IMG/VR virus record: IMGVR_UViG_3300042991_000086
Coordinates: 1-31,073 of that record
Source: a virus
Direction: 5' to 3' (one strand)
DNA: 31,073 nt
This document shows positions 254 through 15,164 of this stretch, in pieces; the first letter of the stretch is position 1, and each line of letters starts with the position of its first letter. The notes under the pieces were generated by a model. It was not told where the DNA came from, made no database searches, and saw only the letters and a program-made list of their open reading frames with translations. The translations under genes and the position numbers were made by a program.

Positions 254-651
254 AAAATAATGGAAAATACCTTGAAAACCAAGTCTCTGACTATATTAAA
301 GCTTTAAATGACCCGGGTGTGTTGATACACAGGCTCTCGGATTCCACGTCAGCAAGAAATATTTCGTCTGCCCAGCCCGCAGATTTTATCTTAGTTGTAC
401 GGGGAAAACCTTTTCTGTTAGAATGTAAATCAGTAAAACAAGCCGACAGATTACCAAAGTTTGCCCAACATCCCCGTTTACAGCGATGGCTGCTGGCCGG
501 CGTATCATCAAAACTCTTAATCCATCATTATCTTGAAGGAAATTATAGGTTGATCGATGTCTCTACCCTAACACTTGGGCAGGCGTCATTTAATTTACAA
601 CACATTTTACCGAAAAACTTTGAAGAAATAATGGAGGCATTACTTGCATGA
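250..651 (+). CDS. RecU-like PD-(D/E)XK nuclease (putative Holliday-junction resolvase)
   Basis: A 133-residue protein. The start is the ATG at 250, overlapping the upstream stop as ATGA; a GTG at 238 in the same frame is less likely. The core PADFILVVRGKPFLLECKSV gives the PD-(D/E)XK nuclease signature: D in PAD, then E and K of ECK about 15 residues later. An N-terminal GKYLENQV helix and the RLSDSTSARNISSAQ segment precede it, as in RecU and related phage resolvases. These metal-dependent enzymes cut branched DNA. Its position directly before SbcD and SbcC genes (4-nt overlap) supports a role in recombination or replication-fork processing. It is shorter than bacterial RecU (about 170-200 residues), so a VRR-NUC-like or other endonuclease role is possible. 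Confidence 0.65.
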   Translation: MKNNGKYLENQVSDYIKALNDPGVLIHRLSDSTSARNISSAQPADFILVVRGKPFLLECKSVKQADRLPKFAQHPRLQRWLLAGVSSKLLIHHYLEGNYRLIDVSTLTLGQASFNLQHILPKNFEEIMEALLA

Positions 652-1631
652 GAACTTTAATAATTAACGATCTGCACCTTGGCGTGAAGCGTCAGGGTGG
701 CACCACGAAAGAGTCCAGGCTGGCTTTAGAAGCTTGGATGCTGAATAATTTTACCAAATTGTTACAAATCCCTCACGACAGGTTGATTATTCTGGGCGAT
801 TTGTTTGATTCCCGGAATGTAGAGGAACATATCATGGCCACAGTAACCCAGCAACTCAGGAACGAACCGGACTGCATCGTTGTTGCTGGTAATCACGATC
901 TTGGTGGTGTATTCGACCACACGATGTCTTCCGCTGAACTCGTAGCAAAGTTATCAAATGCTGAATGGGTGAATGAACCAACTCAGATTGACAACTTTTA
1001 TATAGTCCCGCATCTATACAATCAAGCCGATTTTGACAAGGCCATAAGTAAGTGCCCGAAAGACGTCAATCTATTGCTTCACTGCAATGTGGACTCACCA
1101 TTTACTCATGGGGATCACAGTCTGAATTTATCAATGCAGCAGATAGTTGACCTTGGGAAGCGGGGAGTCGATGTCATAGTAGGCCATGAACACTCCCACA
1201 GACTCTATTCTGAAAACTTAATGGTGATTGGGAATCAAATCCCGTCGTCTATAGCAGACCTCTCACACACTGAGAAAAAGTTCTACATGATTGCGGATGA
1301 CCAGGGAGTGTACGCTGAAGAATTCGATTACAGCGCAACATTCAGCAGGGTTCACACTGAGGGTACTGTGACCGTAGGGGAGTTGAAGGAAATTCCAGGA
1401 GAGTTTATTGAGATTCTTGGAGAGTGTGAGCCTCTTGAATATCCAGCTATTGTAAAAGCTATAGCAGAATTTAGAAAGACATCTTCGGCGTTCATCATCA
1501 AGAACAGTGTCAAGATACGAGAGTCTGAAGACTCAACTCCTGAACAGACTGTAACCAAGTTCAACATAATGGAACTGTTGTTGGACTCTATTCCAGAATC
1601 TATAAGAAAGGACGTAAAATCATGTATTTAA
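648..1631 (+). CDS. sbcD: SbcD/Mre11-like exonuclease subunit (T4 gp47 type)
   Basis: A 327-residue calcineurin-like phosphoesterase. Metal-binding motifs appear in the expected order: DLH (D8, H10), GDLFDSR (D51), GNHD (N82-H83-D84), an isolated H145 in LLHCNVD, and GHEHSH (H180, H182). In the Mre11/SbcD family the protein is the nuclease subunit that trims DNA ends and opens hairpins in complex with the Rad50/SbcC ATPase; in phage T4 (gp47/gp46) the pair drives recombination-dependent replication and host DNA breakdown. The gene overlaps the RecU-like gene by 4 nt and the SbcC-like gene by 10 nt, so the subunits are probably translationally coupled. The C-terminal part is short, consistent with phage versions. 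Identification is firm. Confidence 0.93.
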   Translation: MRTLIINDLHLGVKRQGGTTKESRLALEAWMLNNFTKLLQIPHDRLIILGDLFDSRNVEEHIMATVTQQLRNEPDCIVVAGNHDLGGVFDHTMSSAELVAKLSNAEWVNEPTQIDNFYIVPHLYNQADFDKAISKCPKDVNLLLHCNVDSPFTHGDHSLNLSMQQIVDLGKRGVDVIVGHEHSHRLYSENLMVIGNQIPSSIADLSHTEKKFYMIADDQGVYAEEFDYSATFSRVHTEGTVTVGELKEIPGEFIEILGECEPLEYPAIVKAIAEFRKTSSAFIIKNSVKIRESEDSTPEQTVTKFNIMELLLDSIPESIRKDVKSCI

Positions 1632-3700
1632 CTAAACTGGTTGTTAATAAGTTCGGTGCTCTACGTTCAGGGACTTACACCTTTACCGATGGGCTGAACA
1701 TAATTCGAGCCGCCAATGGGACTGGCAAGTCTACAATGATAGAGGCTGTCCTATATGCTATGTTCGGAACCTCTTCATTGAGAGGCTCTCTTGACGATGC
1801 AGTTACAGAGGGGGTGCCTGTAGCAGACTTGAAAGTGGAAGTGACGTATGGCCCCTATAAAGTGTCAAGATCAAAGTCTTCAGCCTCCCTGGAGGGTCAT
1901 GGGGTGAAGCTGTCTGGCCAGGCCAACGTGTCGGACTTTTTCTATGATCTGTTGGGTATTAGCAAAGGTACGGAATCAAGTGTTCTTGTATCAGAGCAAG
2001 GAGATACAGCGGGGATAGTGAGCGGCAAGTCATCTGAGATAACTGAGTTAATTGAAACTCTTGCAGGTTTTGATCAAATCGACAAGTTGTTGGAACGTGT
2101 AAAAGAAAAATTTCCTTCCGGCAATCAGACTTTACTTGAAGAGTTGTTGAGTGTTGCTAAGGCGGAATTGTCTGAGAAGGAAAATAAACCAGAAGAAGAC
2201 AAGTCGAAGTACGACAACACCGCTCTCATGCAGCAACTTCAAGAAGTAGATTTGAAGTTAAAGAATGTAGATGAAAAATTAAATGGCGCTCGTATAGAGC
2301 TGGCTCAAGCTGAAGGGCTGAAAGCCAATCTGAGGAGCCTCACTGGGAGACATGAGGCTATAGTTGACTCTGTAAAGCATAAAGAAGATTATTTAAAAGT
2401 TTTGACTTTAAAGTCGAAAGAGTCTGTTGAAGATGTCAGTGTCGAAGAGGCCTATCTTGCCTCGTTCACAGAGATGCAAGCTCAATACAACCTGTATAGG
2501 GCTGTAACGTCTTTCATTCAGCCAGAGACTACGTGGGATGGAGACCTGGAGTCTTTTGAAGTTGAGTTGCAGTCTGTGTCTGACTCTATAGCATCCCTGC
2601 AAGATCGTAGAGGTGGGCTATCAGCCAGTATAGACCACTACAAGTCTCTCATAAATGATGACAAGACATGCCCTATGTGCAAGCAGGACGTATCACACCT
2701 GTATGTGGAACTGAACGAAACAGCGAGGGTTAAAGTAGCAGAATTGACATCTGAATTTATGAAAGTAAACTCAGACCTGAAAGAGTCTAAAGATCAGCTG
2801 GATACGCTTACAGTCATTAAGGAAGAACAAAGGCTGCGTAACAACTTCCGTGAATATGCCGATGAGTCCGTGTTGCCATGGGCTATCTCGTGGAAGGGCG
2901 ATGTGGCCGTCGAGCCGTCAACTTCTGAATTCCAACGGTGCAGGGCAGCTGTGCAAGCGGCGAACAATCATGAAAGGTCAATCACTCAGGCTGTAGAGTT
3001 AATAGGTACTGTAACCAAGGATATAGAAGCTCTGGAAGTAGAGCTTTCTGAGGTGTCTGCGGCTATGAAGTCTATAATCATCACCCCTACAAGTGACTTA
3101 GAGCTTAAAGTAGAGAAGTTCAGGTCAGATAAGATAGCTGTGTCAGACTTCTTACATGCCTTAAACAGTAAAGTTGTGGCCAACACAAAGGAACTTGCAA
3201 GGGTAGAGGCTGATAATCTCAGCAGGGGCGTGGAAATAAAGAATCTCAAGACAAAGTGTGAAGAACTTGAAGGGCGGATTAAAGCTGACTTGAAGAATTC
3301 CTTTATTAAGAAAGAGGTTATGAAGGCAAAGCCAGTGGTCTTGAATCAAGTTTGGGATTCTGTTCTTGTGGCCGTGTCGTCAGCGTTTTCAATCTTGCGA
3401 GGAAAGGAATCTATTGTACTCAAGACTGCTAAAGGTTTTTCAGTGAATGGTTTACCAGTTCACAGGTTGTCTGGCTCTGAAAAATCCATACTGGGCATAG
3501 CTCTAAGGTCAACTCTCAGAGACATATTCGCGCCTGTTTCAAATTTGATGATCTTCGACGAGCCATCTGCTGACTGTGACAGCGACAGGACTGCCGCTGT
3601 AGCAGCGGCCTTAGCCTCATTACGAGGGCAGGTTCTCATGATAACACATGAAGACGTTTCAGATGGTCTTGCCAATAACATTGTGGAGGTTGCATGGTAG
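1622..3700 (+). CDS. sbcC: SbcC/Rad50-like ATPase subunit (T4 gp46 type)
   Basis: A 692-residue SMC-like ATPase. Walker A is ANGTGKST (about residues 31-38). A zinc-hook CPMC lies in mid-protein (C350, C353) between two long heptad-rich arms. The ABC signature LSGSEKS starts near residue 616, Walker B is LMIFDEPSAD (D646, E647), and an H-loop MITHED follows. All parts needed for ATP-driven DNA-end binding are present. It is shorter than E. coli SbcC (about 1050 residues) and somewhat longer than T4 gp46, so the coiled-coil arms are short. It pairs with the SbcD-like product just upstream for end resection in phage recombination. The next gene starts inside its last codons (7-nt overlap). No frameshift is seen. 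Confidence 0.93.
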   Translation: MYLTKLVVNKFGALRSGTYTFTDGLNIIRAANGTGKSTMIEAVLYAMFGTSSLRGSLDDAVTEGVPVADLKVEVTYGPYKVSRSKSSASLEGHGVKLSGQANVSDFFYDLLGISKGTESSVLVSEQGDTAGIVSGKSSEITELIETLAGFDQIDKLLERVKEKFPSGNQTLLEELLSVAKAELSEKENKPEEDKSKYDNTALMQQLQEVDLKLKNVDEKLNGARIELAQAEGLKANLRSLTGRHEAIVDSVKHKEDYLKVLTLKSKESVEDVSVEEAYLASFTEMQAQYNLYRAVTSFIQPETTWDGDLESFEVELQSVSDSIASLQDRRGGLSASIDHYKSLINDDKTCPMCKQDVSHLYVELNETARVKVAELTSEFMKVNSDLKESKDQLDTLTVIKEEQRLRNNFREYADESVLPWAISWKGDVAVEPSTSEFQRCRAAVQAANNHERSITQAVELIGTVTKDIEALEVELSEVSAAMKSIIITPTSDLELKVEKFRSDKIAVSDFLHALNSKVVANTKELARVEADNLSRGVEIKNLKTKCEELEGRIKADLKNSFIKKEVMKAKPVVLNQVWDSVLVAVSSAFSILRGKESIVLKTAKGFSVNGLPVHRLSGSEKSILGIALRSTLRDIFAPVSNLMIFDEPSADCDSDRTAAVAAALASLRGQVLMITHEDVSDGLANNIVEVAW

Positions 3701-7073: not shown

Positions 7074-7786
7074 TATTCAATGTATCCCGACACTCTTAAT
7101 CGTTGGCTAACAAGATAGGTTAGATCATCCCGAATTACTATTTGGAGTTCATCATTGGTCGCGCCATCCAGTCTAAAATACTGACCCGTATCTGTGACCT
7201 TCCACCTGGCCGTAACAAATTCATTGCCAGAGCCGAAAGCGTGATAATTGAAGTCTATCGCCATCGAGGCAAGGTCAATATGAGATTTGATTTCACAATT
7301 AAAAAGCTGCGTGGTTACACCATTGACAGACTTTTGGAATATTATACCATTTGTCAAAGGGACACCGCCATTATTCCCCCACCCAGAAGAATCAAAAGAG
7401 CCTGTATCTTCAATAGTAAGCATCCACCATGCGAATCTGTACACCTCTGTTGGTGGTGGTTTAATTCTGAATATTACGGGAGTAACCGAACCATTCACAT
7501 TCATGTTGATGCTACCAGTCCCATCCCCGACAGTGTCTGCTTGCCTACAGATAATAGTTTTTTGTGCGCCTGTAAGCGTGTTGTTCGAATTATCAACAGT
7601 TACAGTTCCACTAACTGGTTGAGTTGCAGGAAAGTTTGAAACTTCAACAGTTCCACTTACCGGTTGAGTTGCAGGAAAGTTAGAAACTTCGTGCTTCAAT
7701 ATTTGAGGATCAATATCAGTTCCAGCACCAGACGCACTTAAATATTTAGTTGTTCCTGTGGAGTCTTTTACCGTTAAATTAGCCAT
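7073..7786 (-). CDS. Tail fibre-like structural protein with VSNFPATQPVSGTV repeats
   Basis: A 237-residue protein. The N-terminal MANLTVKDSTGTTKYLSASG is followed by a 15-residue repeat, VSNFPATQPVSGTVE, present twice in a row. A divergent third element, VTVDNSNNTLTG, follows. This 'NFPATQPVSGTV' repeat is common in phage fibre and head-decoration proteins. The remaining 160 residues (RFAWWMLTIEDTGSF, FNYHAFGSGNEFV, RLDGATNDELQIVIRDDLTY) form a beta-rich C-terminal domain, probably a jelly-roll-like trimeric tip. It is placed between the larger fibre genes and the BppU-like gene, consistent with a role in the adsorption apparatus. Confidence 0.75.
   Translation of the reverse strand: MANLTVKDSTGTTKYLSASGAGTDIDPQILKHEVSNFPATQPVSGTVEVSNFPATQPVSGTVTVDNSNNTLTGAQKTIICRQADTVGDGTGSINMNVNGSVTPVIFRIKPPPTEVYRFAWWMLTIEDTGSFDSSGWGNNGGVPLTNGIIFQKSVNGVTTQLFNCEIKSHIDLASMAIDFNYHAFGSGNEFVTARWKVTDTGQYFRLDGATNDELQIVIRDDLTYLVSQRLRVSGYIE
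7604..7693 (-). repeat. Two-copy 45-bp in-frame direct repeat
   Basis: GGTTGAGTTGCAGGAAAGTT (+ strand) occurs near 7618 and again near 7663, 45 bp apart, with nearly identical flanks. Each unit encodes VSNFPATQPVSGTV plus one residue in the fibre gene on the - strand. Boundaries are approximate. Confidence 0.8.
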
Positions 7787-8959: not shown

Positions 8960-9181
8960 TTACCGTACCCCCGCTTCGTAGAGTTGAGCTTGAAGTAAAG
9001 CTACCTTCTGATTGAGACCATTAACCTGTTGAGTAAGTTGAGTAACTGCCATCATTAGGTCTTCCACTCTTTGCGCATCAGCAGATCGCTTGCTCTCAAA
9101 ATGGTTCAAAGCAACAAAGATGGATTCAATGTTTCTTGTGGCAGCAATTACCCGCCCATCATATTCAGAATCATATGCCAT
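8960..9181 (-). CDS. Short coiled-coil protein of the fibre module
   Basis: A 73-residue protein, MAYDSEYDGRVIAATRNIES..., with a long C-terminal heptad region (LMMAVTQLTQQVNGLNQKVA, LLQAQLYEAG). It is probably an oligomeric (trimeric?) connector or chaperone. It overlaps the stop of the giant spike gene (TAATG) and abuts the next fibre gene, so all three are likely made together. I know no named family; the coiled coil is clear from the sequence. Confidence 0.75.
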   Translation of the reverse strand: MAYDSEYDGRVIAATRNIESIFVALNHFESKRSADAQRVEDLMMAVTQLTQQVNGLNQKVALLQAQLYEAGVR

Positions 9182-12100
9182 TATTCGTCACTCAGTAATA
9201 ATGCTGTAAGGGAAACACCGAGTTCTGTATCTATTGTTCCAGAAATTGGGCCTGTTTTATAGTAAGGTGCGGATGTTGATTTTCTGGCCCATCCACTAAC
9301 AGGTTGATCTACAGAGAAAATCTTGTTCATGCTTATCTGTCCATTCGCATCGGTTGTTCCGTACAATGCTGTCCAAGTAGAAGTTATTGTTCCCGTTGGA
9401 TTACTCCCTGGTGCGCTTCCCATTGTGTAGGTGTACTGGTCAACGGACGTTACTACTATCGCATAGACCCCATTATTTGCGTCAAGAGAAGCATCATCAA
9501 TGAGAACTTTATCATCTGTCAACATCCCATGGGCAGTGTGCGCTACGGTTGCGGTCGTCCCTGAATTGGTAATAGTTACCGTTTCTTGATAAGGAAGATC
9601 ACCTGTTGCGTCCTTGGCATAAAGAGCTACTGCCGCACTTGATATTGGAGTACCTGTATCTGTTGTGACGGTAATGGTTACATCCACACCAGGGTCAAGC
9701 GGGTAAAGATCAGCCCCCTGCGCTGCCGCCGTGGTAAGTGTGTCTATCCGCAAATACGTTATCGGCGTAGTATTGGCCGTGGTAGTGGTAATCCTGATTT
9801 TGAGTTTGAACCCGACAGTAGAATCAACCGTCAAGGTCGATAGATTTGCCCCGTTCAATGTTGACCACGAGCCGCTATATCCTGACCCCGTATCGGCCTG
9901 GAACTCAAGAGAGTAATTGCCAATCGTCCCACCACTCATAACAGCAGCAGTATTGACAAACCCCGTATGCCCCTTGGCAAAGTATGGCATCTCCCAGATA
10001 CATTGGTTGCCGACCACAGCCATTAGCAACCCACCCGAAGAGTTGAATTTCGCCGTGCCTGAGACCATTGTAAACTGACTTGTCGTCTCGGTCGTTGGTT
10101 CGTTGAAGCAGAGCAGTTGCCGCCCATAAGTGGCTGACATAAAGAAGTCAACAAAATGCGTCCCATACACAGACGCTTGACCAGTGGTACTGTTTATTTC
10201 CTGGCACCCTCTGATTGTAGCGTTCAAAACTGCGTGGCTAATATTAAGGATTGTTTTATTTGAATAAACATACATTCCCGCCATAACTTGTTCATAGAGC
10301 ATTCCCTTGTCAGAGTTGGTAAAAGAATAAGGAGCCGACCGGCATTTATCAAGGAAGCATCTCTGTGCCTTTATATCTCTATTATTCCCGCCAGTGTTGA
10401 ACACATAGTTACACCCATAGGCATTTGGCACCCAGGTTCCGCCGGACAGTGGCGCGTTGTAAGTCCCTATATTCCTGAATTTCACGTTGGAAACCGCTGT
10501 CGCCATAACAACATAGGCAGAGGGGTGGCAGTCCGGTATCGTGCCATTAAATCCAAATGTTACCCCATCAATTATGCAGTCATAACAACCCTGATTAATT
10601 AAAATAGCACCAGATGCGGTCGTTATATTCGTTCGTCCATTGTATCGGTCACAATAATCAAAATTAGTAACAGATACCTTTGATGAAACCGACTCCACAC
10701 GATTGTTAATGCCTCGGCAGTTGTTAAAAGTGATATTATCACTGTAAGCAACATAGTAAGGGAGACCAGTATTTCGTACATACTGAATGATTCCCCCCTG
10801 AACGCCATCAAGGGTCATGTCTTTGCAATAACCAATGTAAATAGCGTGGTCTGATGCGCCAGGGACATTTCCACGCTCGAACCGACTTCTTTTTATCAGA
10901 CCACCGGCAAAGTTTGAGGCCATACTAAGTGTGTAAGTATCAAGCGCCGAGTACATCCCCACCGTCAGTCCCTCTACATCAAGGGCTGTTGCTGTCTCAT
11001 TGATAATAGTAGTATCAAAGATGAGGCAGTTTTTCAGCCGCAACGAGTACGCCTGACCAAAGTTGAAATACCCACTTGTGCAGTACAGGTATTCAAGATC
11101 AATCGCACCTGCCGATGTTGTTGCCCACTCAGGACGAGTTCCTAATGTCGCATTGGGGGCCGTATTTGTTGCTCTTGCTGCCGTGGCAACCTCTGCCAGG
11201 ATGATATTGGGAATCCAGACCTTGCAACCAGCGGGGGCAGTATGCCCGATAGTCCGCTTCATCGTCACATTGCTTGACGCTATCACTGCCGAATGGGCAA
11301 AATTAATTCGGTAGTTATTGGCATCGACAACGGTCTTGATCGTGTACTGTCCGTCATCCCCTGCACCACTGGTAAAATCAAGATAAATTTTATTACCAAC
11401 TGCTAAACCGTGGCCCGTGAAAGTGATTGTCAGAGAATGAAGCACCGAGACATTGCCACTGGTAATCGCTACTATTGAAGGGTACTTAATGGCGTAGGTG
11501 GTATAGGCAATATAGATTTCATACGTCCCATCAACTCCTGTACCTGAAGTAAAGGCACAATAAACTTGCTCTCCGAGATTCTGGAGATGCGAGGCAAAGG
11601 TAATGGTTATTCCAGGCCTTGATGTTACATTGCCAGCAGTGCCAGAACCAGTCAGATCAACCGTGAAATGGTATGGGCTGATAACGGTAACAGCGTAAAT
11701 CCCATCATAGGCCGTGGCCCCACCAGAGGTGAAATCAAGGCCGGTTTGTTGACCCGTCTCAAGAGTATGTCCGGAGGCGTAGTAACAGGTTACTTTATTG
11801 TCTATCCAGGTGTAGGTACACGACTGAGATATACCAGCATAGGTTGACGCCTGGGCGGCAAGGGAGGCATAGGTGGAAATCTGCTCATACGCCTCACCCA
11901 TCTGCATAATGCCACCGGCAATGGCCTTAAGGAATTGCTGCCGCTTGTCCGTATCCCCGAAAGCCTCGCCAATATGTTGATGCGCCCATCCATTCGTAGA
12001 GCCATTCAGCGCAGGCCAGGCGGTATAATCATCATCCGTGTCAGCTGAACCAGATGAATTTTCCACAAACGCTCCAGGCGCAAACTGCACCGTGGAGCCA

Positions 12101-12654
12101 TTCGTCGGAATCTGAAACTGCTGGCCGACTGTCCCGTCTGTAGTCCCAAGGTAAAAACGCCCACCTCTGGATGAGTGTTTTCCGAGCCTCGGAGTGGTAA
12201 AGTTGGCCGCTGCATCAGCTGCAATCTCCATCCAGCTCAACACATCGGCACCTGTGGCGTATGCGTTGACTCCAGACAATATCCCAGCCGCAAAAGCACC
12301 ACCTGTTACCTCACGGAACTTGATAAATCCCGATATTGGCATCATTGCTCCAACAGCAGTAGGAGCGACAGTCTTCGAGGCCCAAACCCCTAAAAGATAG
12401 CCACTCACCCCGCCTTGCGTAACAGACGTGCCGATAGCAGGGACAAGGCCAGCTCCAGTGTTAAAATCAACCTGCCGGATATTCTGGCCGTCCCAGATAA
12501 TCTCACCCTCAGTAATCGTCTGCGAACCGATACTCCCTGTCATGGATGCCGGAGCGTTGGCATGGACGCGGGTGTCTGTGCGTGTTGTCAAACTTGCCGT
12601 GGCACCATTGATCGTCATCGGCTCGCCAGCAGTACGGGCAGTACCACCGTCCAA
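9181..12654 (-). CDS. Giant tail spike/fibre protein with beta-helix and repeated modules
   Basis: About 1157 residues from the first conventional start (TTG 12654). The frame continues upstream to 12681 and reads (I)ANITVASFLDGG, where an ATC stands 6 nt after a strong Shine-Dalgarno GGGGAGGTG (12686-12694). The true start may be there; see findings. Three consecutive modules of about 55-60 residues (centred on TGLDFTSGGATAYDGIYAV, YCAFTSGTGVDGTYEIY and YLDFTSGAGDDGQYTIKTVV) occur at about residues 285-460, and a divergent fourth (NNGVYAIVVTSVDQYTYTMG) lies near the C-terminus. Between them is a long stretch of short strands (KDMTLDGVQGGIIQYVRNTG, NITFNNCRGINN, VSVTNFDYCDRYN) typical of a right-handed beta-helix spike. 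An Ig-like module follows (VDVTITVTTDTGTPISSAAV). It probably binds or degrades a surface polysaccharide; no catalytic residues can be named. Confidence 0.8.
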   Translation of the reverse strand: MDGGTARTAGEPMTINGATASLTTRTDTRVHANAPASMTGSIGSQTITEGEIIWDGQNIRQVDFNTGAGLVPAIGTSVTQGGVSGYLLGVWASKTVAPTAVGAMMPISGFIKFREVTGGAFAAGILSGVNAYATGADVLSWMEIAADAAANFTTPRLGKHSSRGGRFYLGTTDGTVGQQFQIPTNGSTVQFAPGAFVENSSGSADTDDDYTAWPALNGSTNGWAHQHIGEAFGDTDKRQQFLKAIAGGIMQMGEAYEQISTYASLAAQASTYAGISQSCTYTWIDNKVTCYYASGHTLETGQQTGLDFTSGGATAYDGIYAVTVISPYHFTVDLTGSGTAGNVTSRPGITITFASHLQNLGEQVYCAFTSGTGVDGTYEIYIAYTTYAIKYPSIVAITSGNVSVLHSLTITFTGHGLAVGNKIYLDFTSGAGDDGQYTIKTVVDANNYRINFAHSAVIASSNVTMKRTIGHTAPAGCKVWIPNIILAEVATAARATNTAPNATLGTRPEWATTSAGAIDLEYLYCTSGYFNFGQAYSLRLKNCLIFDTTIINETATALDVEGLTVGMYSALDTYTLSMASNFAGGLIKRSRFERGNVPGASDHAIYIGYCKDMTLDGVQGGIIQYVRNTGLPYYVAYSDNITFNNCRGINNRVESVSSKVSVTNFDYCDRYNGRTNITTASGAILINQGCYDCIIDGVTFGFNGTIPDCHPSAYVVMATAVSNVKFRNIGTYNAPLSGGTWVPNAYGCNYVFNTGGNNRDIKAQRCFLDKCRSAPYSFTNSDKGMLYEQVMAGMYVYSNKTILNISHAVLNATIRGCQEINSTTGQASVYGTHFVDFFMSATYGRQLLCFNEPTTETTSQFTMVSGTAKFNSSGGLLMAVVGNQCIWEMPYFAKGHTGFVNTAAVMSGGTIGNYSLEFQADTGSGYSGSWSTLNGANLSTLTVDSTVGFKLKIRITTTTANTTPITYLRIDTLTTAAAQGADLYPLDPGVDVTITVTTDTGTPISSAAVALYAKDATGDLPYQETVTITNSGTTATVAHTAHGMLTDDKVLIDDASLDANNGVYAIVVTSVDQYTYTMGSAPGSNPTGTITSTWTALYGTTDANGQISMNKIFSVDQPVSGWARKSTSAPYYKTGPISGTIDTELGVSLTALLLSDE

Positions 12655-12668
12655 AAAAGATGCTACCG

Positions 12669-13424
12669 TTATATTTGCGATGACACACCTCCCCGGCTAA
12701 AGGTATAGCCATGAACAGTTTTTAATCTTCCAGAAAGGTGTTTATGAATGGTAGCCTTGTGTGCCATGATTGCGCCAGCAGCTTGTTTCACAGAATCAAA
12801 AATGACACCATCACTCCTTAAAAGTTTTATGCTTTTACGAGGCAATAGAACTCCAGTTTTAGAAGCGGATATTTTGGCTTTGGTTTCTTCTGATAAAGGT
12901 ATTCCCTTGTTCCATCCAGGCCTTCCTATACTTGCCATTCTTGCCTTTTCTCTATCAAGCGCAGACGGCCTATGCCCACACGCTTTCATTGCAACGCTTT
13001 GCCTATGGCGTGTCTCTTCACTTCGTTTTTGGCCTAAAACTGCCTGCCGCCGTTTTTCAACCACCTCACGCGGGTGTACCTTTCCTTGCTGCGCTTTTGA
13101 TAGCCGTTCCCTCGTTGATTCAGATACAAAAGTTGGTGCATTTCCACCAGAGTTCAGGTTATAGCCATTCGGAGTGAGTGTGTTCATTTCCCTAATCCAA
13201 TGAACCTCCCGGTTGTTAAGTTCACACCGTGGACACTCTTCAAGGACTGTAAAATTGAACGATTCTACTCCATACTTCTTGATCACAAACACAATAGCTG
13301 AACGCCCAAGTTCTTTCAGCCTCTTATGCGCCGCCCATCTTCTCTTAATATCAACTGACTGACCCACATAGCACTTTCCATTAGTGGTGTTTTTTATGCA
13401 ATATATACCGGTTATGTTCGCCAT
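12669..13424 (-). CDS. GIY-YIG homing endonuclease with NUMOD3 and HTH modules
   Basis: A 251-residue free-standing homing endonuclease. The N-terminal nuclease domain has GIY (residues 6-8) and YVG (19-21), Arg in RRW (28-29) and the catalytic Glu in NREVHWI (E73), followed by NGYNLNSGGN. The linker carries NUMOD3-type elements (SEETRHRQSVAMK and GRPGWNKGIPLSEETKAKIS). The end (FDSVKQAAGAIMAHKATIHK, then HLSGRLKTVHGYTF) is an IENR1/NUMOD1-like helix-turn-helix. Such enzymes cut a cognate gene lacking the insertion and spread by repair. The gene lies between two structural genes: its ATG follows the upstream stop as TAAATG, and its last codons cover the Shine-Dalgarno sequence of the spike gene. 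Codons and role mark it as a mobile passenger. Confidence 0.93.
   Translation of the reverse strand: MANITGIYCIKNTTNGKCYVGQSVDIKRRWAAHKRLKELGRSAIVFVIKKYGVESFNFTVLEECPRCELNNREVHWIREMNTLTPNGYNLNSGGNAPTFVSESTRERLSKAQQGKVHPREVVEKRRQAVLGQKRSEETRHRQSVAMKACGHRPSALDREKARMASIGRPGWNKGIPLSEETKAKISASKTGVLLPRKSIKLLRSDGVIFDSVKQAAGAIMAHKATIHKHLSGRLKTVHGYTFSRGGVSSQI
12679..12694 (-). promoter_or_regulatory. Strong Shine-Dalgarno followed by ATC where the spike gene should start
   Basis: On the - strand GGGGAGGTG (12694-12686) is followed, 6 nt after its GGAGG core, by ATC (12681-12679) in the frame of the spike protein. The next codons read ANITV, like the MANLTV start of the fibre gene at 7786. This looks like a complete initiation site whose ATG has become ATC. 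Confidence 0.6.
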
Positions 13425-15164
13425 TTATTCGTCCGATTGCCGAAGTACGGAAATTGAACCGCCAGCAGAGCCGAAAGTCCCAGTTCCCTCAAACGTCTTA
13501 ATAGGCGTAGCCTTCCCATCTCGAATACGCCCAAACAAAGAACGATCCGAATGATAAGTTGCGGAATAGCTAAGGGCGGTAGCATCAGCCAGCATGTCGA
13601 TGTAGCTGATATAAACGTCATTGTCGACTGCCGCCGTAGGACAACCAGAACAACCGGTGAAGGTAATTGTAGAAGCCTGAACAGTGAACCCCGTATAAGG
13701 GATTCGGTAATAGATACCATCATCACCTTCAACCCGAATTGTCCCTGTAGTCGGTGTATCTGTAGCAGACTGTGTGCCAGTCCCAGGAGTTTCTGTTCCC
13801 ACCTTTGTGACAACAGAAACTGAAGCTCCGGTAATAGCTGTATTCAGCAAGAACTGACCAGAGTCAATATCGGTGCTTCCAGCGTTCTTCAATCCAAGAA
13901 GAACGTAATCTTCTGTAGAAACAACACCATTTACATAAAATATCTGATTGTTAGGCGGATTCCTCTGCACGTTATCAAGGGCTGTGATCTTGTCATTACT
14001 GGTAAGATCGTCAGTCTCAACGCCAAAGCCATAGCCACCAAGAAGAGCAGAACCAGTTGACTGTCCACAAGATGGGAAGCTCAGTGTCCGCTCTGTCATT
14101 GTTGAGATGGTAGCAGAAGCCGCATCCGGTACCGTCTGTGAGATGGTGTTGGTAGCAACAGGTGGCGCACCGGTGAGCATCTGTACCCACATAACACCTG
14201 AGCCATCATCCGCCAAAATCTGTGCAGTGCCCCCACTGCTGAATGTTACAGGATTGCTGTCATCAAAGACACCTGTGAGAGAAGCATAGGCAACTTGATG
14301 AGTGACGCCCCGGAACAATTCGCCGTTTAGTCCATAAACCGTAGAGGCTGATGCTTGCCTCTGAAGCCATTTGATCCGCTCATAGAAATTATTTATCGAG
14401 CGAGTCGGTTTATTGACATTCCACTTTGAGTAGTAATATTCGTTGACTGTATTAGCGTCAATATCAATGGCATTATACCCTTCCGTGGTCAGGGTAATAT
14501 CTGTCCATGTTGCTACTGTGGCCTCAGCAGTGAGGTTATTATTGTCAGCCGCATAGTTCAGGGCAATAACATTGTTACCGCGAGCAGAGCCGTTTACAAG
14601 GAACTCTGAATAAGTGTATCCAAAAACACGTGTTTGTCCAAGAACCCTTCTCAGGTCAGTATCAGTTCCAGAGCTTCGTACTTTCAGCAAGAAACGGGAC
14701 GCAATTCCTTTTGTAAGATCACGATTCAATCCCTTAGTCGTTTCACCACTGGGGACGGTATTCCAAAAGTCATTGGCAACAACCGCCCCATTCTGCACAA
14801 CCTGAAGATCGCAACCCTCACCAGCAATCAGGGCAAAACCATCATAAATATCATCGCCGCTGTTCATAATGACCGAACAATCATAAAGATGTTCAATCAG
14901 CGTCTCAGTGAGGGTATATCCATTCAACATCTGGATAATCTGGTCGATACCATTTCTCTGAGATGGCGTCAACTTCGTCATATCCATATAGTCGCCGGAA
15001 GACCCAGAAGCCTGCGCATCATCCGCCAAGCTCCCCAACCATCTATGCAGATAAATACCTGTATAATATCCCGCTGCTGCTACTCCATGGGCAGTCCCAA
15101 CATAGGTGATAACCTTCGTTGCTTTATCTACCGTCACGTCTGCCGCGATGTCTTCGTAAGCCAT
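13425..15164 (-). CDS. Large phage structural protein (fibre/appendage)
   Basis: A 579-residue protein starting MAYEDIAADVTVDKATKVIT. The N-terminal half is alpha/beta (LTPSQRNGIDQIIQMLNGYT, IASRFLLKVRSSGTDTDLR, VLGQTRVFGYTYSEFLVNGS, INNFYERIKWLQRQAS). The C-terminal half is beta-rich and Thr/Gly/Ser-rich. It contains a linker ETPGTGTQSATDTPTTG, a strand region (IYYRIPYTGFTVQASTITF) and a CSGC motif. It ends ISVLRQSDE, similar to the LLLSDE end of the spike protein. It resembles large virion proteins found after the lysis genes in other siphophages, but I cannot assign a named family. It is read just before the homing endonuclease gene and presumably belongs to the adsorption apparatus. Confidence 0.7.
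   Translation of the reverse strand: MAYEDIAADVTVDKATKVITYVGTAHGVAAAGYYTGIYLHRWLGSLADDAQASGSSGDYMDMTKLTPSQRNGIDQIIQMLNGYTLTETLIEHLYDCSVIMNSGDDIYDGFALIAGEGCDLQVVQNGAVVANDFWNTVPSGETTKGLNRDLTKGIASRFLLKVRSSGTDTDLRRVLGQTRVFGYTYSEFLVNGSARGNNVIALNYAADNNNLTAEATVATWTDITLTTEGYNAIDIDANTVNEYYYSKWNVNKPTRSINNFYERIKWLQRQASASTVYGLNGELFRGVTHQVAYASLTGVFDDSNPVTFSSGGTAQILADDGSGVMWVQMLTGAPPVATNTISQTVPDAASATISTMTERTLSFPSCGQSTGSALLGGYGFGVETDDLTSNDKITALDNVQRNPPNNQIFYVNGVVSTEDYVLLGLKNAGSTDIDSGQFLLNTAITGASVSVVTKVGTETPGTGTQSATDTPTTGTIRVEGDDGIYYRIPYTGFTVQASTITFTGCSGCPTAAVDNDVYISYIDMLADATALSYSATYHSDRSLFGRIRDGKATPIKTFEGTGTFGSAGGSISVLRQSDE

Follow-up and report, generated by a model that had tools for sequence, protein, structure and literature searches.

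Free-standing genes of the GIY-YIG type are known from T4-like phages as the seg genes, which carry the I-TevI catalytic domain and in which coupling of translation to the upstream gene, as well as overlap with its ORF, has been described (PMC2988022). In fungal mitochondria, mobile ORFs split atp6, atp9, cox2 and nad3 and add a divergent 3' end of the gene (Allomyces atp6; Glomus atp6, atp9, cox2 and nad3; PMC3630166). Phage homing endonuclease genes (HEGs) are also positioned at borders of genetic exchange, and in the passages of that paper on duplication, start codon and N-terminus neither capture of a gene start nor renewal of a 5' end is mentioned (PMC10448857). The ShiLan-type case consists of an out-of-frame HNH insertion in a phage methylase gene (PMC11855218).

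The window analysed here, a whole stretch of 31,073 nucleotides of virus DNA, carries on its minus strand, in this order, an upstream structural gene, a GIY-YIG endonuclease gene, a spike ORF, a small ORF and two genes without PHROG family (Table 1). We propose, with a probability of about 70%, that a free-standing homing endonuclease is lodged in the 5' end of the tailspike gene, that its N-terminus derives from an older spike allele and that a diverged but complete spike 5' end with its own Shine-Dalgarno (SD) stands behind it. Like the T4 seg genes, this gene combines a GIY-YIG nuclease with a NUMOD-type DNA-binding part, is free of introns, lies beside an essential structural gene and has its start coupled to the upstream stop; unlike them, its N-terminus would be a captured piece of the start of the downstream gene, and that gene would restart at a second, diverged start inside the endonuclease end. 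The closest functional parallel is given by the fungal mitochondrial mobile ORFs, where an endonuclease ORF also lies within a gene, sometimes in phase with the native part, and a divergent copy of a segment keeps the gene whole. The phage arrangement is their mirror image: the fungal elements act at the 3', C-terminal end of mitochondrial genes, whereas in these phage tail genes it is the 5' end that is renewed, together with its start codon and SD. Because the duplicated part is the 5' end and not the 3' end, the phage arrangement works like the fungal type without being a member of it, and the restored spike keeps its own reading frame. As with the HEGs at borders of genetic exchange, the nuclease gene marks the boundary where a conserved gene meets a highly variable one, with the difference that the exchanged gene is here a tailspike. 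As in the ShiLan case, a non-splicing homing gene sits within a protein gene that is not destroyed, but there the host gene reads through in frame, whereas here the host gene would begin anew at a duplicated 5' end. Searches of the openly accessible full-text literature gave no phage example of such an arrangement.

Table 1 Features of the endonuclease-tailspike locus in the window
Feature	Position	Strand	Evidence or remark
Upstream structural gene, 579 aa, ends TAA	13425..15164	-	No Pfam or PHROG family; conserved anchor
Putative captured start block ATGGCGAACATAACC, leader MANIT; spike-type gene start, now endonuclease start	13410..13424	-	L005 spike ATGGCAACTATAACC, same place; L126 spike GTGGCGAACATTACA
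GIY-YIG + NUMOD3 homing endonuclease, 251 aa	12669..13424	-	Pfam, PHROG, I-TevI domain, alignment
Shine-Dalgarno GGGGAGGTG within endonuclease 3' end	12686..12694	-	-12.3 kcal/mol; 6 nt before ATC
ATC at ancestral start-codon position of the spike	12679..12681	-	ATG in L005 and L014
Second start block ATCGCAAATATAACG, containing endonuclease stop TAA (12671-12669)	12667..12681	-	Read from sequence
Spike codons 6-10, patch of local divergence	12652..12666	-	5/15 nt identical to L005, likewise to L014
TTG, first canonical start codon in spike frame	12652..12654	-	Weak SD, -3.0 kcal/mol
Tailspike-like gene, intact, 1166 codons counted from ATC	9181..12681	-	dN/dS about 0.12 vs L005; low-confidence model

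An earlier note on this DNA had placed the endonuclease directly behind the stop of the upstream gene and its end over the spike start, and both junctions were confirmed: the ATG (13424) adjoins the upstream TAA with zero gap, and the 3' end overlaps the tailspike gene by 13 nt, with the TAA falling within the opening codons of the spike. A TAG at 12699-12697 closes the spike frame, which then reads CCG GGG AGG TGT GTC ATC GCA AAT ATA ACG; the noted succession of SD and ATC is thus present, with ATC GCA AAT ATA ACG (12681-12667) lying 6 nt past GGAGG and in phase with the spike ORF of 1157 residues. No ATG, GTG or TTG occurs in this frame until the TTG at 12654. With the in-frame TAG just upstream and this TTG as the next candidate, the sole conventional in-frame start lies 9 codons inside the spike gene. 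The two start blocks are alike, as had been noticed, with 11/14 of the first nucleotides identical, or 9/12 after the start codon, and a match this good is reached by 0.42% of random gene-start pairs from these phages (276/66,066). The MANLTV start of a neighbouring gene (7786-7073) was also found as noted. When the exact junction was searched as a DNA pattern in the viral contigs, no second copy appeared.

The endonuclease product matched PF01541 (GIY-YIG, 1.2e-10) and PF07460 (NUMOD3, 2.1e-11) in Pfam, a match to PF22083 remaining under its cutoff, and belonged to PHROG 314 (5e-39). Residues 5-91 matched the solved catalytic domain of I-TevI (E 3.3e-10), and the alignment showed that the catalytic Tyr, Arg, Glu and Asn are kept (invariant Y8, Y19, R29, E73 and N89). 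The gene thus fits a GIY-YIG homing endonuclease, with catalytic domain and NUMOD-type region, whose cleavage activity is predicted. Only two homologues, both distant, were found in the viral collection, together with sequences of 30-35% identity in phage records, none of them close.

The upstream gene was used as query against 2.9 million viral contigs, which gave ten relatives. Orthologues with 78-97% amino acid identity are present in L002-L005. In L005, the gene order is identical and the same spike is present without endonuclease, its ATG following straight after the upstream TAA: GGACGAATAAATGGCAACTATAACCACC. In L014, the same spike, again without endonuclease, lies behind a different gene and starts ATG GCC ACG ATT ACT. 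The endonuclease is thus a presence/absence polymorphism at one site, and protein alignment places the ATC of the window on the ATG codons of both relatives, from which it follows that an insertion took place and that the start-codon position is now ATC. The uninterrupted junction that the earlier note had predicted for endonuclease-free relatives exists in L005 in a near but not identical form, and the view of the ATC as a mutated start agrees with its position. An SD energy of -3.2 kcal/mol was obtained at the endonuclease start and at the L005 spike start alike. The idea that the endonuclease took over the translation start of the spike stands in that the L005 ATG follows the TAA and the weak SD context was kept, but a simple copy of one target is improbable, the leaders of L046, L075 and L006 probably coming from other alleles (see below). 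In the same way, invasion at the start of the spike gene is supported, whereas the proposed codon 5 may be a shortened remnant, since the insertion point in relatives can be codon 31-32. Compared with L005, the spike is under purifying selection (dN 0.081, dS 0.649, dN/dS about 0.12).

The search with the upstream gene also gave a distant relative, L006, in which the same gap is occupied by another, different GIY-YIG gene; relatives of this GIY-YIG gene stand in front of spikes of the same family in L046 and L075. In L046, the endonuclease begins with MTAFVASNGLVNNFDAYTGGSVVATLDSTIS, 31 residues of spike type, continues with MCIYTITH and is followed downstream by a complete spike, MAAYTHNTGGTVFYDTLTGGSANATLDTHVIS. 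In L075, a leader of 20 residues, MTAFVASNGAVSAPLDSKIS, precedes MCIYTITH, and the complete spike MTAFVVNSGGF... lies downstream; in L006, the leader VTALTCNSASVV has about 12 residues (VTALTCNSA) before MCIYTITH, and the complete spike starts MAAFTASSG. The leaders of L046 and L075 end just before a block encoding NQxTLxxRTDxYSCxNHS. A second, divergent copy of a spike segment hence accompanies the endonuclease clearly in L046 and L075, over a short length in L006 and over 5 codons in the window. An HMM of the spike N-terminus, built from endonuclease-free loci only (45 N-termini, 28 unique), recognised the leaders of L046 (4.6e-13) and L075 (0.014), control endonucleases scoring 0.37 or worse; it missed that of L006 (E=0.8), which is too short for the profile. 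The first 27 nt of the L006 leader are identical at 22/27 positions to the GTG-started spike of L112. As a match to the leader, the own downstream spike ranked only 28/36 in L046, 14/36 in L075 and 26/34 in L006; since other alleles match better, the leader and the restored spike in these loci probably stem from different alleles. A search with the spike N-terminus gave 50 loci, and among those inspected a GIY-YIG gene was at the spike start only in L006, L046 and L075, all three endonucleases having such leaders. The same layout in related phages points to a recurring way for such elements to precede receptor-binding genes.

Judged from its relatives, the window's pair of start blocks probably represents two spike alleles and not a simple duplication. 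Its leader would by itself be weak evidence of capture: it is no longer than 5 codons, and other tail genes also have MANxT-like starts (MANLTV at 7786 in the window). The leader resembles the spike start of the more distant L126 (13/15 nt) better than its own downstream neighbour, a likeness over 15 nt only that weakly suggests a foreign allele. The earlier idea of invasion and start takeover was right in outline, and the relatives make the arrangement a recurring one.

We compared the 5' ends and SDs of the spikes at the four independent loci with an endonuclease at the spike start (window, L006, L046 and L075). Relative to the nearest relative, the 5' ends of these spikes diverge more than the bodies, with ranks 1, 3, 6 and 11 of 40 (one-sided p=0.0013), and their SDs are stronger than those at endonuclease-free loci, with ranks 1, 2, 6 and 7 of 34 (p=0.0021); with four loci and related sequences behind both tests, these p values serve as guides only. 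Between L006 and L100 the spike body is 87% identical and the first 32 codons 53%. In the window, the patch at codons 6-10 (5/15 identical to L005 and L014) is followed by blocks with 12-15/15 identical positions. This divergence could instead reflect rapid escape evolution and not a segment that was carried in.

An ordinary insertion between two genes, in which the endonuclease brought its own MANIT and its likeness to the spike start is due to chance or common start usage, appears improbable. MAN, MAK and MAT starts are indeed common here (MANLTVK at window 7786, MAKIRDY in L002), and at eight other GIY-YIG genes that have an ORF close downstream no such likeness is seen, for which reason we rejected the idea that all GIY-YIG genes capture starts; but the similarity is rare among random gene-start pairs, as given above, and the leaders of L046, L075 and L006 at the same place are clear spike N-termini. 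Blocks of about 15 nt at both ends of the insert might also be read as a direct target-site duplication made by the inserting cut. This is very unlikely, as enzymes of the GIY-YIG homing type, I-TevI among them, produce overhangs of 2 nt, third positions are not the same in the two blocks and the duplicated part in relatives reaches up to 31 codons from different alleles. Least probable, and strongly disfavoured, is a group I intron, an intein or a frameshift fusion of HEG and spike by which the spike would be restored once transcribed or translated. Introns often encode GIY-YIG enzymes, and the endonuclease frame does overlap the spike; against this, Rfam gave no match over 12400-13700 even at E 1, be it a group I intron or another RNA family, Pfam gave no intein match in the region, the ORF occupies the entire insert, a TAG 18 nt upstream stops the spike frame and inspection of the overlap revealed no obvious slippery site.

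Returning to the captured-leader reading, its least certain part is the use of ATC as start codon, which is likely but unproven as read from the sequence. AUC and AUU starts are rare exceptions, as in infC, and initiation at AUC is very inefficient in E. coli. The SD at the ATC is the strongest among the genes scored, and a non-canonical codon at the start position and a strong SD are thus both present at the window spike; such a pairing of a very strong SD with a very weak start codon would fit compensation. The RNA structure around the ATC was ordinary (z -1.42). Canonical codons account for virtually all natural bacterial starts (AUG 82%, GUG 14%, UUG 4%; PMC11497404). An ATC that stems from faulty sequencing or assembly, or from a minority variant, with ATG as the true codon, would concern one base at one site in one metagenome-type record whose junction has no second copy in the viral collection, and we regard this origin as unlikely but the more plausible of the two alternatives at this codon: there is no positive sign of error, spike and endonuclease being otherwise open, and in L094 this codon is ATT, preceded by a good SD, which gives weak support at 37 nt from a contig end. 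A spike that begins at the TTG (12654), 9 residues shorter and with the ATC block as a vestige, would use a normal start codon and would agree with the divergence of codons 6-10. It is rather doubtful, because there is almost no SD at this TTG (-3.0 kcal/mol, vs -12.3 with a 6-nt spacing at the ATC), the frame is open up to the ATC with ANIT still encoded, and both close relatives keep the full N-terminus. The ATT of L094 (37-39) occupies the start-codon position of another spike of the same family, behind GAAGGAG.

For the proposed capture and renewal of the spike start, the following course may be envisaged. The endonuclease would cut a conserved stretch near the spike 5' end of a co-infecting phage lacking it, and repair from the carrier would copy the endonuclease along with the downstream spike 5' segment, whose divergence may protect it from cutting. 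Translation of the endonuclease would occur by stop-start coupling from the old weak start of the spike, and that of the spike from the new SD within the last endonuclease codons, the most likely start being the ATC now in place of the ancestral ATG. We suggest, as a tentative extension, that endonuclease and renewed spike 5' end form one mobile unit, which might cut the start region of rival alleles and install itself there along with a 5' end resistant to cutting, a strong SD and, in some cases, a weak start other than AUG that holds spike output near its former level. If this were true, phages would have in these 'start-capturing' homing genes a general means to exchange or reset receptor-binding genes among themselves. 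In this arrangement, a homing gene without intron or intein can occupy the 5' end of an essential phage gene, taking its start and leaving a renewed one. Such elements come to stand before the genes for tailspikes, which decide host range, where conserved tail genes give way to variable ones, and the strongest scored SD with an apparent AUC start offers a natural and simple test case for compensation of a start codon by SD strength.

The spike sequence had no match among solved proteins. Its structure model, mostly beta, was poor (mean pLDDT 46.5), with much of residues 520-990 at 50-87, and its best matches among PDB structures were phage tailspikes and depolymerases (best E 1.4e-05). As the gene also lies downstream of tape-measure, tail-assembly and tail-tip genes, tailspike is a sensible working name on the basis of this low-confidence model. 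Neither the spike nor the upstream gene, used as queries, found relatives among bacterial and archaeal genomes.

Several side observations were made around the locus. The upstream gene (window 13425-15164; L002-L005) precedes quite different spikes in close relatives, and conserved tail modules are thereby sharply set off from exchangeable ones. A small ORF of about 73 codons (window 8960-9181, minus strand; start MAYDSEYDGR), below the ORF size cut-off, overlaps the spike stop as TAATG and is conserved in L002-L005, where it lies between spike and next gene. At the next border, between the spike and the following gene, homing-type endonucleases are found in L002 (10592-11110, HNH-like by eye), L006 (5136-5813) and L007 (8485-9180), the latter two of GIY-YIG type; their leaders weakly resemble the start of the following gene in L006 (8/12 nt) and L007 (9/12 nt) and were left uncounted. 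In L006, a 17-codon ORF (1726-1776) between upstream gene and endonuclease starts at the place of the L007 spike start and is a possible remnant of an earlier event. In the L006 phage (G006 10505-11617) there are several more matches to GIY-YIG, among them one (L028 826-2157) in which NUMOD-like repeats form long runs. On the opposite strand of the window (648-3700, plus strand), SbcD-like and SbcC-like subunits of a palindrome-specific nuclease are encoded.
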